DNA of 64,000 bases from Agrococcus jejuensis. GTDB lineage: Bacteria > Actinomycetota > Actinomycetes > Actinomycetales > Microbacteriaceae. Positions 28,919 to 52,973 of this stretch are shown here, in pieces (positions within the stretch are counted from its first letter, which is position 1; every line of letters begins with the position of its first letter). The stretch lies in contig NZ_LT629695.1 of assembly GCF_900099705.1 (NCBI RefSeq), positions 2,480,001 through 2,544,000 on the forward strand. Reading direction: 5' to 3'. The translations under genes were made by a program, and so were the position numbers. A model generated the notes under the pieces. The model did not search any database, was not told the origin of the DNA, and saw only the letters and a program-made list of their open reading frames with translations.

Positions 28919-28959
28919 GAAGGCCCCGGATGCCGATGTGGGAGGCGTCCGGGGCCTTC
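28919..28959. terminator. Strong hairpin between convergent genes
   Basis: A 16-bp stem (GAAGGCCCCGGATGCC paired with GGCGTCCGGGGCCTTC, one G-T pair) closes a nine-base loop. It lies between the BMP lipoprotein gene (plus) and the GlpD-like gene (minus) and can serve both directions. Confidence 0.8.
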
Positions 28960-29029
28960 GTGCGTCCCCGTGTCGCAGGCCGGGGATGCGACCCGCCCGT
29001 GCCGGGATCGGCGCGGGCGGGAGTCTTCG

Positions 29030-30682
29030 TCAGGCGTGCACGCGAGCCCTCGCGACGCCGCCCGTGAGGCGCTCGACGTACGCGCGGTGGTCGGCGACCT
29101 CCTGCTCGGTGCGCGCCGCATCCCAGCCGAGCATCGGGGCGACGAACGCGGCGACGTCGCGGTCGACGTCGGTGCCGAGCGCGGGCTCGAGGCCCACCAT
29201 CGTGCGACGGTGCAGCAGGTCGACGAGCGTGGATGCGCCCTCGGCGCGGATCGCGTGGGCCAGCTCGGCGCCGACGACGGCGCCGCGGCCCTGGCCGAAC
29301 GTCGTCTGCAGCGCCGGCTCGGCCTCGTGCAGCGCGGCGATGGCCTCGGCGGCGGAGCCGTAGACGGCGACGAGCCGCTCGGCGATCGCACCGCGCCACG
29401 GCAGCCGCGATGCGAGCGCCGACGCCGCGCGGCGGCCGCGCGCCCAGCGGTCGGTCGTCGCGCCCGGCAGCGCCTGCTGCGCGGTCTGCGACTTCGGCAG
29501 CGTGCGGCCGAGCACCTTCGCGACGACGTCGGTCGTCTGCCGGCCGAGCGAGATGTGCGGCGTGAGCTTGCCGCCGACGATGGTCACGAGGCCGGGCACC
29601 TCGTCGTGGCGAAGGATGAGGTGGCTGCGGGGGATCGCGCCCGCCTTGACGCCGGGCCGGTACGGCAGCGGCCGCACGCCCGTGTACGTCAGCAGCACGT
29701 CGTCGACCGTGAGACCGGCGCCGGGCACGAGCGCGTTCGTCTCCTCGAGCAGGTACGCGACCTCGTCCTCGGTGCCGCGCACGGTCGCGGGGTCGCCCTC
29801 GAACCGGTCGTCGGTCGTGCCGATGAGGTAGCGGCCGTTCCACGGGATGACGAGGATCGCGCGGTTGTCGCGGCGCGCCTCGAAGTAGATGCACGAGTCG
29901 GGGGCGCCGGGGAACGGATCCACGACGAGGTGCGTCCCGGTCGTGCCGCCGATCTGGCGCGCGATGCCCACGCGCTCGCCGAGCTCGTCGACCCACGGGC
30001 CCGCGGCGTTGACGACGCACGCGGCGTCGATCGAGAGCTCGTCGCCGGTCAGCGTGTCGCGCGCGTCGATGCCCGTCACTCGGGCGCCCTCGCGACGCAG
30101 CGCGACGGCCTCGACGTACGTGGCGACGTCGGCGCCCGCGTGCGCGGCCGAGATCGCCGTCTCGAGCACGAGGCGCTCGGGGAAGGTCACCTGGCCGTCG
30201 TAGTAGCGCACGGCGCCGCCGAGGTGGCGCTTGTCGAGGCCGGGCAGCTCGGCGTCGAGCGACTTGCGGCCCATGTGCCGCGTCGCAGGCATCGACTTGC
30301 CGGCCGACAGCACGTCGTACAGGGTCACGCCGGCGCGGAACATCCATCCGGGCAGGTGGTTGTGGCGGTACAGCGGCACGACGAAGCCGAGCGGCTGCAC
30401 CAGGTGCGGCGCGATGCGCAGCAGGCTCTCGCGGTCGTGCAGCGACTCGTAGACGAGCGGCACCTCGCCGTGCTCGAGGTAGCGCAGGCCGCCGTGGATG
30501 AGGCGCGAGTTCCACGACGACGTGCCGATGGCGAGGTCGCCGCGCTCGACGAGGGCGACGGAGAGGCCGCGCGTCGCTGCGTCGCGCGCGATCGCGACGC
30601 CGTTGATGCCGCCGCCGACCACGAGGAGGTCGTAGGAGCCGGCGCTCAGGCGAGCGGCGTCTGCACGGGCGAATCCGGTCAT
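29030..30682 (-). CDS. GlpD/EryB-like FAD-dependent polyol-phosphate dehydrogenase
   Basis: A 550-residue flavoprotein of the GlpD family. The FAD motif DLLVVGGGINGVAIARDAATRG, then GTSSWNSRLIHGGLRYLE, TYTGVRPL and VTIVGGKLT are all family hallmarks. It oxidises sn-glycerol 3-phosphate or a similar polyol phosphate and passes electrons to quinone at the membrane. The erythritol-phosphate dehydrogenase EryB of Brucella belongs to the same family, so context (EryA-like kinase, EryH-like isomerase) leaves the substrate open. The ATG at 30682 has GGAGA seven bases upstream. The promoter region shared with the isomerase gene holds an operator-like motif. Confidence 0.9.
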   Translation of the reverse strand: MTGFARADAARLSAGSYDLLVVGGGINGVAIARDAATRGLSVALVERGDLAIGTSSWNSRLIHGGLRYLEHGEVPLVYESLHDRESLLRIAPHLVQPLGFVVPLYRHNHLPGWMFRAGVTLYDVLSAGKSMPATRHMGRKSLDAELPGLDKRHLGGAVRYYDGQVTFPERLVLETAISAAHAGADVATYVEAVALRREGARVTGIDARDTLTGDELSIDAACVVNAAGPWVDELGERVGIARQIGGTTGTHLVVDPFPGAPDSCIYFEARRDNRAILVIPWNGRYLIGTTDDRFEGDPATVRGTEDEVAYLLEETNALVPGAGLTVDDVLLTYTGVRPLPYRPGVKAGAIPRSHLILRHDEVPGLVTIVGGKLTPHISLGRQTTDVVAKVLGRTLPKSQTAQQALPGATTDRWARGRRAASALASRLPWRGAIAERLVAVYGSAAEAIAALHEAEPALQTTFGQGRGAVVGAELAHAIRAEGASTLVDLLHRRTMVGLEPALGTDVDRDVAAFVAPMLGWDAARTEQEVADHRAYVERLTGGVARARVHA

Positions 30683-30733
30683 GCTCTGTCTCCATCGACG
30701 GCGCATCGCGCGTCCCTGCGCGTGCGGCTAGGC

Positions 30734-30755
30734 TGTCTATACAACCATACACAAC
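30734..30755. promoter_or_regulatory. Candidate GntR operator B between the GlpD-like and TPI-like genes
   Basis: TGTCTATACAAC at 30734-30745 is followed by CATACACAAC. On the minus strand this reads GTTGTATAGACA, matching the motif at 43941-43955 over GTTGTATAGAC. TATAGA here can serve as the -10 box for the GlpD-like gene. The match to four other sites in the cluster supports a shared regulator; the assignment to the local GntR protein is inferred. Confidence 0.6.
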
Positions 30756-51556: not shown

Positions 51557-51576
51557 GCAGAGGAGGAGCGGACACC

Positions 51577-52899
51577 ATGGCACGCTTCCTGAAGATGCCC
51601 GGCGTCTCGGCCGACTCCGACGCGGCCGTGCTCGAGGGCTGGCTCGTCGAGGCCGGCGCCTCGGTGACGGCCGGCGCGGCGATCGCCTCGGTCGAGACCG
51701 AGAAGGCGGTCGTCGACATCGAGGTCGACGACGACGCCGTGATCCACGCCCTGCTCGTCGAGTCGGGCGACACCGTGCCCGTCGGCGACCCCATCGCCGT
51801 GCTGCTCGCGCCCGGCGAGGCCGCGAGCGAGGGCGAGTCGCTCATCGCGCAGCTCGGCGGTGCCCCGGCAGCCGCACCGGCAGCGGAGCCCGCGCCTTCG
51901 ATCGCGCAGGAGGAGGCGAAGGAGGCCGTCGAGGCTGCCGAGCCCGTCGCCGCGCCCGCGCAGCCGGCTCCCACGACGCCCGAGCCCGTCGCCGCACCCG
52001 CGGCGCCGACCGGGGGATCGGGGGAGCGCCGCTTCGCGAGCCCCCTCGCGCGCCGCATGGCGAAGGAGGCGGGGCTCGACCTCGCCGCCATCCAGGGCAC
52101 GGGCCCTGGCGGCCGCATCGTGCGCGCCGACGTCGAGTCGGCCGCGAGCGCCCCCGAGGCGCCCGCAGCGGCAGCGCCCGCCGCGGCGCCCGCATCCGCG
52201 CCGGTCGTGAGCCCGGCGGGTGGCACGGCGACGCCGCACACGAAGCTGCGCAGGATCATCGCGTCGCGGCTGCAGCAGTCGAAGCGCGAGGCGCCGCACT
52301 TCTACCTGCGGCGCGACCTGCGCGTCGACGCTCTGCTCGCCCTGCGCGCGCAGGTGAACGAGGGCTCGGCCGTGCGCGTCTCGGTCAACGACCTCTTCGT
52401 GAAGGCGGCGGCGCGAGCGCTCGTCGACGTGCCCGAGATGAACGTCATCTGGACCGACGACGCCGTCGTCTCGTACGCGACCGCCGACATCTCGATCGCG
52501 GTCGCGAGCGACCGCGGCCTCGTGACGCCGACGATCCGCGGCATCGAGTCGCTGTCGCTCACGTCGCTGTCGGCGCAGATCAAGGATGCGGTCGGCCGCG
52601 CCAACGAGGGACGCCTGCAGCAGGCGGAGCTCGAGGGCGGCACGATGTCGATCACGAACCTCGGCATGTTCGGCGTCGACGAGTTCTCGGCGATCATCAA
52701 CCCGCCGCAGGCGTCGATCCTCGCGATCGGCGCGGCCACGAGGCGCGCCGTCGTGAACGACGAGGGCGAGCTCGAGGCCGGTTCGGTCGTCACCGTCACG
52801 TTGTCGGTCGACCACCGACCCGTCGACGGCGTCGTCGCGGCGCGGTGGCTCGACCGCCTCGCGCAGCTCGTCGCCTCGCCCATGCAGATCCTGCTCTGA
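51577..52899 (+). CDS. Dihydrolipoamide acyltransferase (E2) of the same complex
   Basis: A 440-residue E2 protein. The lipoyl domain has its Lys at 43 in VETEKAVVDIEV. An Ala/Pro/Glu linker follows, then a peripheral-subunit-binding domain (RRFASPLARRMAKEAGLDLA, GTGPGGRIVRADV), another flexible linker and the acyltransferase core (about 225-440) with the catalytic DHRPVDG. It swings acyl groups from E1 to CoA. ATG 51577 has GAGGAG upstream; the gap to E1 is 20 bases, so the two form an operon. LipB and LipA encoded at 23-25 kb are expected to lipoylate it. The substrate acid is unclear. A strong terminator hairpin follows. Confidence 0.92.
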   Translation: MARFLKMPGVSADSDAAVLEGWLVEAGASVTAGAAIASVETEKAVVDIEVDDDAVIHALLVESGDTVPVGDPIAVLLAPGEAASEGESLIAQLGGAPAAAPAAEPAPSIAQEEAKEAVEAAEPVAAPAQPAPTTPEPVAAPAAPTGGSGERRFASPLARRMAKEAGLDLAAIQGTGPGGRIVRADVESAASAPEAPAAAAPAAAPASAPVVSPAGGTATPHTKLRRIIASRLQQSKREAPHFYLRRDLRVDALLALRAQVNEGSAVRVSVNDLFVKAAARALVDVPEMNVIWTDDAVVSYATADISIAVASDRGLVTPTIRGIESLSLTSLSAQIKDAVGRANEGRLQQAELEGGTMSITNLGMFGVDEFSAIINPPQASILAIGAATRRAVVNDEGELEAGSVVTVTLSVDHRPVDGVVAARWLDRLAQLVASPMQILL

Positions 52900-52935
52900 C
52901 GCACGATCGCTGCGTCGACGCAGCAGATCGAGCGT

Positions 52936-52973
52936 GCCGAGGGCCCCGCACCGAACGGTGCGGGGCCCTCGGC
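52936..52973 (+). terminator. Terminator of the E1-E2 operon
   Basis: A nearly 18-bp perfect stem (GCCGAGGGCCCCGCACC with GGTGCGGGGCCCTCGGC) closes a short loop 36 bases after the E2 stop. Confidence 0.85.

Follow-up and report, generated by a model that had tools for sequence, protein, structure and literature searches.

What is a RuBisCO-like protein (RLP) doing among the kinases, dehydrogenases and aldolases of polyol metabolism? The question is raised by a 64,000-nucleotide stretch of an Agrococcus genome (the window, positions 2,480,001–2,544,000 of a single 3.40-Mb contig), in which a first-pass annotation had described a GntR-controlled polyol or sugar-phosphate regulon built around an RLP. 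The gene families that it named are all present between 29.0 and 52.9 kb according to Pfam, NCBIfam and open reading frames (ORFs). Our tentative answer, held with less than even confidence, is that these genes form a GntR-type regulon that serves a small sugar alcohol (a tetritol such as erythritol or a threitol being the likeliest), in which the RLP would stand in the place of EryC, the epimerase of the erythritol pathway. Gene content, the common palindrome, the RLP clade and its signature, the placement of the TIM-family proteins and the failure to find EryC were computed directly.

The RLP gene (31,672–32,946, minus strand) matches PF00016 in two stretches (3.4e-42), and its product, from an uncharacterised clade, is predicted to be an erythrulose-phosphate epimerase or isomerase. 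It is 98% identical to the RLP of Agrococcus jejuensis (L026) and 87% to that of Agrococcus versicolor (P0002). The clade spans Actinobacteria, Clostridia, Erysipelotrichia and some Chloroflexi, and occurs sporadically: with a threshold of E ≤ 1e-100 the protein is found in 3 of 299 genomes of the family draw and 1 of 396 of the order-level draw (the own genome being counted in both). According to the available models, the RLP scores 255 bits for MtnW in TIGR03332 (cut-off 513.6) and 295 in PRK09549 (cut-off 409), 189 for OiaX (NF042437, cut-off 700) and 191 for type III RuBisCO (cut-off 497). Three other clade members behave in the same way, with 288–313 and 330–359 bits for the two MtnW models, below both cut-offs, and 186–225 bits for OiaX. 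The OiaX cut-off is passed in none of 148 genomes from the class.

A scan of genome contigs gave 153 confirmed RLP loci, the best 80 of which are used in all locus counts below. The alignment of 90 RLPs contains 72 rows of the clade, namely 69 usable ORFs of the 80 loci together with L005, L006 and the window (the RLP ORF length was unusable in L032, L033, L034, L035, L040, L042, L043, L044, L079, L089 and L103). All 72 rows have Asn where the MtnW references (3/3) carry Lys, a residue that we take to be the catalytic Lys98 of the Geobacillus enzyme, and all 72 keep both KDDE and KPC. An Arg directly after the active-site His, present as HR in OiaX-like rows, is found in none (0/72), and the loop-6 Lys is absent from 69 (L098, L101 and L104 have it; in L102 a Lys stands one position on). 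Both are functional residues of RuBisCO forms I–III. In a 94-leaf tree, from which L016 and L017 were dropped, the clade (75 leaves, support 0.862; inner 68 leaves, 0.998; supports in all trees here are FastTree local values, and several PDB rows are partial) lies apart from MtnW with 4nas (1.0) and from the OiaX-like proteins; the node joining the deep members L098, L101 and L104 has support 0.834, and the tree holds no labelled RLP of the Rhodospirillum rubrum or hamamelose type. The AlphaFold model (pLDDT 84.9, with lower confidence at residues 318–322 in the loop-6 region) has the RuBisCO superfamily fold and matches best the MtnW chains 4nas and 2oej, with TM values by query length of 0.82–0.89 among the 50 chains listed. 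Phmmer gives 9.2e-72 for 2oek and 8.6e-72 for 4nas, whose entry title says MtnW.

MtnW is thus the closest characterised relative in sequence and fold, and shares with the RLP the missing loop-6 Lys and the YG and (G/A)G(V/I)HPG-like motifs. The RLP, however, has Asn for the MtnW Lys, forms a clade of its own and reaches 32–38% identity in fold alignments to chains of 2oek, 2oej, 2oem, 2zvi and 4nas, and the Agrococcus genome yields no match to MtnA, which the same search detects in 9 of 14 control genomes. Methionine salvage is ruled out by these results together with the sub-cut-off scores. The first-pass annotation had named placement in the MtnW clade beside methionine-salvage genes as grounds for abandoning its reading; tree, residues, scores and the lack of MtnA all speak otherwise. 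OiaX identity (31%) is likewise ruled out, by 189 versus 700 bits, by the missing active-site residues and by the OiaK-like (DUF1537) kinase, found by tblastn in none of the 80 loci. On sequence grounds, the RLP is therefore a separate uncharacterised subgroup, neither MtnW nor OiaX.

As for the genes around it, window-type subsets recur within 10 kb on either side in 17 of the 25 loci of this RLP clade that come from Actinobacteria (L026–L037, L039, L040, L042, L052 and L069; L038 is not actinobacterial), so the grouping is not chance. The first-pass annotation had proposed looking for such co-occurrence in relatives, and the RLP does keep company there with parts of the same gene set. GlpK-type kinases are the most frequent (15 of 17 loci), followed by HAD-IIB (13), TIM (12), fructose-bisphosphate aldolase (FBA)-type aldolase, GntR and AraM (10 each), GlpD (9), the third FGGY kinase, FGGY3, and the zinc-dependent dehydrogenase (8 each), and E1 (7). 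These counts are lower bounds because many loci end short, and that for FGGY3 leaves out a further 29% match in L028. The remaining 8 actinobacterial loci carry other gene sets (L049, L068, L083, L091, L093–L095 and L097, with L095 presumed to be actinobacterial).

The other loci, largely from Clostridia and Erysipelotrichia, have RpiB, TIM-family, AraD-type class II aldolase-family, UPF0261 and PEP_hydrolase-like proteins as recurrent neighbours, as well as a metallo-beta-lactamase-fold protein, an amidohydrolase, a galactitol-type phosphotransferase system (PTS) and GlpA/GlpB-like flavoproteins. According to tblastn counts over the 80 loci, TIM is present in 45, UPF0261 in 38, RpiB in 35, AraD-type proteins in 32 (none of them among the 17 window-type loci), GlpD/A in 16, PEP_hydrolase in 15, FBA-type aldolase in 12, transketolase in 7 and transaldolase in 1. 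All 16 GlpD/A loci also have an FGGY kinase or PTS, and if only loci of 18 kb or longer are counted (45 in total), 30 have TIM. UPF0261 and PEP_hydrolase-like proteins are steady partners of the RLP (e.g., in L041, L048, L050, L055, L058 and L063–L067), and the two may be enzymes that together activate an acid substrate. In L050, L055 and L058 proteins of ~530–620 aa lie next to a DASS-like anion symporter; one that was scanned has no NCBIfam match at 1e-15, and they resemble, we presume, the N-termini of arylsulfate sulfotransferases.

The cluster is organised by four divergent promoters (glpD-like/TIM, DUF7973/GlpK-like, zinc dehydrogenase/FGGY3 and gntR/E1) and an aldolase promoter, which have a palindrome in common. 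The pattern CTTGTMTAKACAAG was derived from the window promoters and, at up to 3 mismatches, matches the 64 kb 5 times versus 0.55 expected, a number reached in none of 100 shuffles. Four of the five matches lie in cluster promoters; the fifth (28,050), inside a BMP lipoprotein gene, is not counted as a site. Three further sites have exactly 4 mismatches, giving 8 in total at up to 4. The operator-like site between the glpD-like and TIM genes (30,732–30,745; CTTGTMTAKACAAG, 3 mismatches) stands at the same place in five loci (L026, L027, L028, L032 and L035). That between the membrane-protein and kinase genes (34,847–34,860; CTTGACTAGACAAG, 1 mismatch) is conserved, being present in the loci of twelve relatives, and that between gntR and E1 (49,235–49,248) recurs in seven (L032, L036, L037, L039, L042, L052 and L069). 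A site upstream of the aldolase gene (43,940–43,953) has its counterpart upstream of FBA2 in L032, and two overlapping weak sites in the zinc dehydrogenase/FGGY3 promoter (39,908–39,931, starting at 39,908 and 39,918; 4 mismatches each) have better-matching counterparts at the equivalent position in L032, L036, L040 and L069. A relaxed pattern, which permits A at one more position per half and was chosen after the relatives' sites had been viewed, gives 34 sites at up to 2 mismatches in 15 actinobacterial loci (285,697 bases; L026 and L033 are not among them), all 34 outside the matched cluster genes, versus 1, 0, 2, 3, 0 and 0 in six Markov shuffles. The position of the palindrome in the cluster promoters and its recurrence in relatives therefore make a common regulon including E1 and the lipoyl acyltransferase E2 well supported, as the first-pass annotation had supposed; the GntR/HutC-family protein encoded at 48,440–49,207 (minus strand), a presumed repressor, is the predicted binder.

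The metabolites of the pathway are indicated by the TIM-family proteins. The window gene (30,785–31,552, plus strand, exact start uncertain; PF00121, 4.3e-39) was placed in trees with RLP-linked TIMs from 36 of the 45 loci that have a match (37 in total with the window; L044, L049, L078, L079, L085, L087, L094, L099 and L100 are not included). Together with LerI/EryH references these proteins form one group versus six triose-phosphate isomerases (TPIs; 0.997). Within it, 24 clostridial TIMs join EryH/LerI-type proteins of alphaproteobacterial ery, OiaX and DhaK loci (the Rhizobium and Gemmobacter ery loci, the OiaX locus and Thalassospira) and PDB 11ef, whose molecule name is L-erythrulose-1-P isomerase (0.994). 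The 13 actinobacterial TIMs, the window's included, lie with the fungal structure 3s6d and with LerI-like proteins from loci that contain DhaK, among them the one at 684 kb in the Agrococcus genome (0.954). The references were labelled by locus anatomy, by the 11ef molecule name and by the RpiB partners of L115 and L148, which pass the D-erythrulose-4-phosphate isomerase cut-off of 240 with 256.6 and 257.8 bits, respectively. That one RLP clade is accompanied by two TIM lineages of erythrulose-phosphate-isomerase type argues for a shared metabolite, and tetrulose phosphates are the best-supported candidates. The route through tetrulose phosphates suggested by the first-pass annotation thus gains support from the TIM trees and the gene neighbours of the RLP.

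EryC itself is matched by tblastn in none of the 80 RLP loci and in none of 11 RLP genomes at E ≤ 1e-5, with the control record W01 found at 82%. In Rhizobium, the ery locus runs FGGY kinase, GlpD-family protein, EryC-like TIM-barrel protein, regulator, TIM and RpiB (Ery names from anatomy). The RLP loci provide GlpD/A with a kinase or PTS (16 of 80), TIM and RpiB, a set that resembles the erythritol pathway minus EryC, and the EryC step is assigned to the RLP by elimination, because it is the remaining enzyme there. Such a role agrees with RuBisCO chemistry, which starts with abstraction of the proton at C3 of the 2-ketose and includes epimerisation as a side reaction. An erythrulose-1-phosphate 3-epimerase replacing EryC is the leading candidate function of the RLP.

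In the proposed route, an FGGY kinase would produce a polyol phosphate. Oxidation by the GlpD-family flavoprotein would then yield a 2-ketose-1-phosphate, which the analogy with EryB suggests to be D-erythrulose-1-phosphate. The carbamylated-lysine/Mg site of the RLP would remove the C3 proton, and reprotonation of the resulting 2,3-enediolate on the opposite face would give L-erythrulose-1-phosphate, as EryC does. The LerI/EryH-type TIM would then form D-erythrulose-4-phosphate, and RpiB, which adjoins the RLP in many Clostridia and is encoded elsewhere in the Agrococcus genome (three genes), would form erythrose-4-phosphate. Alternatively, the class II FBA/tagatose-type aldolase (44,020–44,886, plus strand; TIGR00167, 224 bits versus a cut-off of 216), a candidate erythrulose-1-phosphate lyase, may split erythrulose-1-phosphate. 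All these reactions, the substrate and the carbamylation of the RLP are what we infer from gene content and homology. In Clostridia, loci with AraD-type aldolase, LerI-type TIM, RpiB and transketolase would allow triose phosphate and a one-carbon unit to be connected with erythrose-4-phosphate. That the clade as a whole is a sugar-phosphate epimerase, performing only the enolisation half of the RuBisCO reaction on D-/L-erythrulose-1-phosphate in place of EryC, and also part of a natural clostridial erythrulose-monophosphate route, is a possibility that we regard as doubtful.

The gene at 29,030–30,706 (minus strand) encodes an FAD-dependent polyol-phosphate dehydrogenase of the GlpD/EryB family (Pfam DAO and DAO_C; NCBIfam GlpD, 352 bits versus a cut-off of 360); the gene was correctly recognised in the first-pass annotation, but the boundary given there for the region, 28,919, falls past its stop. 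The GlpK-like FGGY kinases 1 (34,927–36,441, plus strand; NF000756, 625 bits versus 498; TIGR01311, 577 versus 590) and 2 (36,547–38,043, plus strand) are 76% identical to each other, and FGGY3 (40,004–41,611, plus strand; XylB model, 287 bits versus 380) is XylB/EryA-like and 32% identical to EryA of the reference locus L148. A search of plasmids with FGGY3 returns haloarchaeal kinases as the best-scoring matches, and also relevant here is a module on a Rubrobacter plasmid (L141) and a Shinella plasmid (L142), which contains a GlpD-like protein, class II FBA, split E1 alpha and beta, a lipoyl protein, an ABC sugar transporter and a kinase, to which Shinella adds E2, an AraM-like iron-containing alcohol dehydrogenase and lipA. 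No RLP or TIM is present in the stretches of this module that were examined; it is possibly an undescribed polyol pathway, for which no literature search was made. The GlpK-like kinases are 47–48% identical to the Rubrobacter module kinase. Among the Ery homologues listed in the first-pass annotation, the EryH-type TIM holds, whereas EryA does not for the two GlpK-like kinases, and EryB gives way to a GlpD nearer to the RLP-less module.

Several results weigh against an erythritol-like route. The window GlpD is 49.5% and 46.4% identical to the Rubrobacter and Shinella module GlpD, respectively, versus 36% to EryB, and kinase 2 is 48–50% identical to ordinary glycerol kinases of other bacteria (50% for Acinetobacter GlpK), so that the cluster kinases are no specific pointer to a tetritol, and glycerol or another polyol may be the substrate instead. 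The window cluster yielded neither an RpiB nor a sugar transporter gene, and E1/E2, AraM, the zinc dehydrogenase and the three HAD phosphatases are not needed by the proposed steps. The best PDB matches of the window TIM are named TPI; one clostridial TIM gives 201.3 bits for 11ef and 200.2 for TPI, and one clostridial RpiB 141 bits for RpiB and 140 for DerI. TIM is absent from the examined stretch in 35 of the 80 loci, and the 38 UPF0261-bearing loci have GlpD/A in none, a kinase or PTS match in 2 and TIM or RpiB in 17; the proposed route leaves these loci unexplained, and the RLP there may reach its substrate in a different way, or act otherwise. The stereochemistry of GlpD and the order from EryA to EryI are background assumptions of the route. 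For EryC as a D-erythrulose-1-phosphate 3-epimerase followed by LerI and DerI, PMC10733421 is the sole source. Propionibacterium freudenreichii uses erythritol, according to PMC4437456, and has no RLP among the best 80 of the 153 loci.

Among other explanations, the one that survives best, though unlikely, is that the RLP makes a tetrulose phosphate by decarboxylating or cleaving a branched 3-oxo sugar-acid phosphate, in the manner of OiaX or the hamamelose enzyme, with TIM and RpiB processing the product. OiaX is an RLP of sugar metabolism with the same downstream partners (in Rhizobium, oiaX, kinase, LerI-type TIM and DerI-type RpiB). The 55 loci below 60% GC have two metallo-beta-lactamase-fold families in 15 and 6, an amidohydrolase in 10 and a symporter in 3 (the one scanned resembles DASS anion symporters), which fits lactone or acid substrates. 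However, the RLP has 189 bits for OiaX where 700 are needed, the OiaX-type Arg (72/72) and the loop-6 Lys (69/72) are missing, and an OiaK-like kinase is found in 0 of 80 loci, which makes OiaX-type decarboxylation less likely than epimerisation or isomerisation. The first-pass annotation had left a decarboxylation or an isomerisation step side by side; of these, the former is now the less likely.

A glycerol-like polyol, pentitol or hexitol route is a somewhat weaker candidate and also improbable. There, GlpD would give a ketose-1-phosphate, the FBA-type aldolase would release dihydroxyacetone phosphate (DHAP) and an aldehyde for E1/E2, TIM would serve DHAP and glyceraldehyde 3-phosphate, and the RLP would isomerise ketose-1-phosphate to ketose-5-phosphate like the R. 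rubrum enzyme. GlpD, FBA, E1 and a kinase do occur together (with AraM-like protein and E2 in Shinella) in the module that lacks RLP and TIM over the stretches examined, and the cluster kinases are as close to ordinary GlpK. The RLP-linked TIMs, however, fall outside the TPI group, and another TPI gene elsewhere in the genome groups with the TPIs. Plain glycerol catabolism is disfavoured, since a separate glpK exists elsewhere in the genome by an aquaporin-like gene (read from sequence), although the kinases of the cluster are about equally near to ordinary GlpK. In the alignment, kinase 2 has Val where E. coli GlpK has Phe, presumably at a glycerol-pocket position.

Less probable again is an MtnW-like enolase, in which a dehydratase would form a 2,3-diketone phosphate, the RLP would tautomerise it, a HAD protein would remove the phosphate and E1/E2 would cleave the diketone. 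It draws on the nearness of MtnW, on the 32 of 80 loci with AraD-type proteins, to whose family MtnB also belongs, and on HAD and E1/E2 in the actinobacterial cluster; against it are the Asn in 72 of 72 rows, scores of all four members scanned below the MtnW cut-offs, the lack of MtnA in the genome, the absence of AraD-type proteins from the 17 window-type loci and the 66 bits of one scanned AraD protein versus the MtnB cut-off of 137. A loose mixture of independent sugar genes with no common pathway, to which the penicillin-binding protein and nucleoside-transport genes of the same stretch might point, is very improbable in view of the recurrence in 17 loci and of 34 palindrome sites in 15 loci versus 0–3 per shuffle.

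Of the remaining cluster genes, that for a HAD-IIB (Cof-type) phosphatase (32,975–33,784, minus strand; PF08282, 8e-39) follows the RLP in position, and a DUF7973 (PF25928) membrane protein, a possible transporter, is encoded at 33,804–34,736 (minus strand). The latter family was identified via precomputed Pfam annotation in a homologue search, while a direct Pfam scan of the protein gives no family. In 9 of the 17 window-type loci its gene separates the RLP/HAD genes from those of the GlpK-like kinases. An AlphaFold model of high confidence (pLDDT 93.5) matches no fold in the PDB at E ≤ 0.001, so a new transporter fold is possible as judged from the model. The zinc-dependent dehydrogenase of the MDR type (38,812–39,894, minus strand; PF00107/PF08240) is followed downstream on the same strand by a 164-aa ORF (38,274–38,768) with no Pfam or NCBIfam match. 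Beyond FGGY3 lie a HAD-IIA phosphatase (41,687–42,535, plus strand; TIGR01460, 118 bits versus a cut-off of 100) and an AraM/glycerol-1-phosphate dehydrogenase-family protein (42,532–43,890, plus strand; NF002022, 1.4e-34, below cut-off), 40% identical to the iron-containing alcohol dehydrogenase of the Shinella module. The aldolase gene is followed by that of a HAD phosphatase of beta-PGM/Gph type (44,886–45,668, plus strand) and by an interleaved penicillin-binding protein gene (45,758–48,397), and the cluster closes with a fused alpha-beta thiamine-pyrophosphate-dependent dehydrogenase E1 (49,379–51,556, plus strand) and E2 (51,556–52,899, plus strand).

The two BMP lipoprotein genes that flank the cluster (27,816–28,892 and 53,103–54,212) lack an upstream palindrome at up to 3 mismatches and are excluded from the regulon. 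The second of them opens a nucleoside-type operon (53,103–63,143), with an ABC ATPase, two permeases and four ORFs resembling cytidine deaminase, thymidine phosphorylase, amidase and nucleoside hydrolase (the last four and the permeases labelled from sequence reading). Elsewhere in the genome, a second RLP at 342 kb (locus L132, 334–352 kb) gives 324 bits for the OiaX model (cut-off 700), with a DUF1537-like kinase gene after it and a KdgT-like permease gene before it, both labels being read from sequence. Another locus, at 684 kb (L133, 678–690 kb), contains RpiB, a LerI-like TIM that groups with the actinobacterial RLP-linked TIMs, and DhaK-, SDR- and MFS-like genes (these three read from sequence); it appears to be a tetritol/erythrulose-type locus. 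Given this locus and the OiaX-like RLP, the genome may handle related compounds by known means. Two equal-scoring TIM matches lie near the contig ends (6,441–7,010 and 3,394,237–3,394,806), and the ends of the circular contig may overlap or carry a repeat.

Compared with described systems, the window-type cluster shares with the erythritol pathway (EryA-EryB-EryC-EryH-EryI) an FGGY kinase, a GlpD-family protein, an EryH-type TIM, RpiB, a regulator and a nearby aldolase, taking RLP loci together. It differs, however, in having the RLP, GlpK-like kinases, E1/E2, AraM and the zinc dehydrogenase, with no EryC found and no RpiB in the cluster. The synthetic erythrulose-monophosphate (EuMP) cycle, which uses aldolase, LerI, DerI and transketolase/transaldolase types (PMC10733421), has its enzyme types in pieces around RLP genes; unlike it, the RLP set is natural and the RLP would stand for EryC. 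Two RLPs are comparable by description. That of R. rubrum, a 5-methylthioribulose-1-phosphate isomerase (PMC6302742), acts on a 2-ketose-1-phosphate by isomerisation, which resembles the reaction suggested for the present RLP, and the RLP oxygenase of the D-hamamelose pathway, attributed to Kim 2018 in PMC10176493, acts in branched-sugar catabolism.

The known RLP reactions are few: a list given in the review PMC10176493 has proton abstraction, isomerisation, decarboxylation and oxygenation, without epimerisation; an open-access literature search found no RLP in tetritol metabolism. Two related questions are the erythritol genes of P. freudenreichii, still to be found according to PMC4437456, and why aldolases for erythrulose-1-phosphate occur together with the isomerases, a point raised in PMC10733421. 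By tying an RLP clade to erythrulose phosphates, the gene context provides a defined substrate class to examine. If the proposal is true, tetritol breakdown would have an additional route, and an epimerising RLP would be a bare RuBisCO half-reaction in sugar catabolism and a new job for the family.

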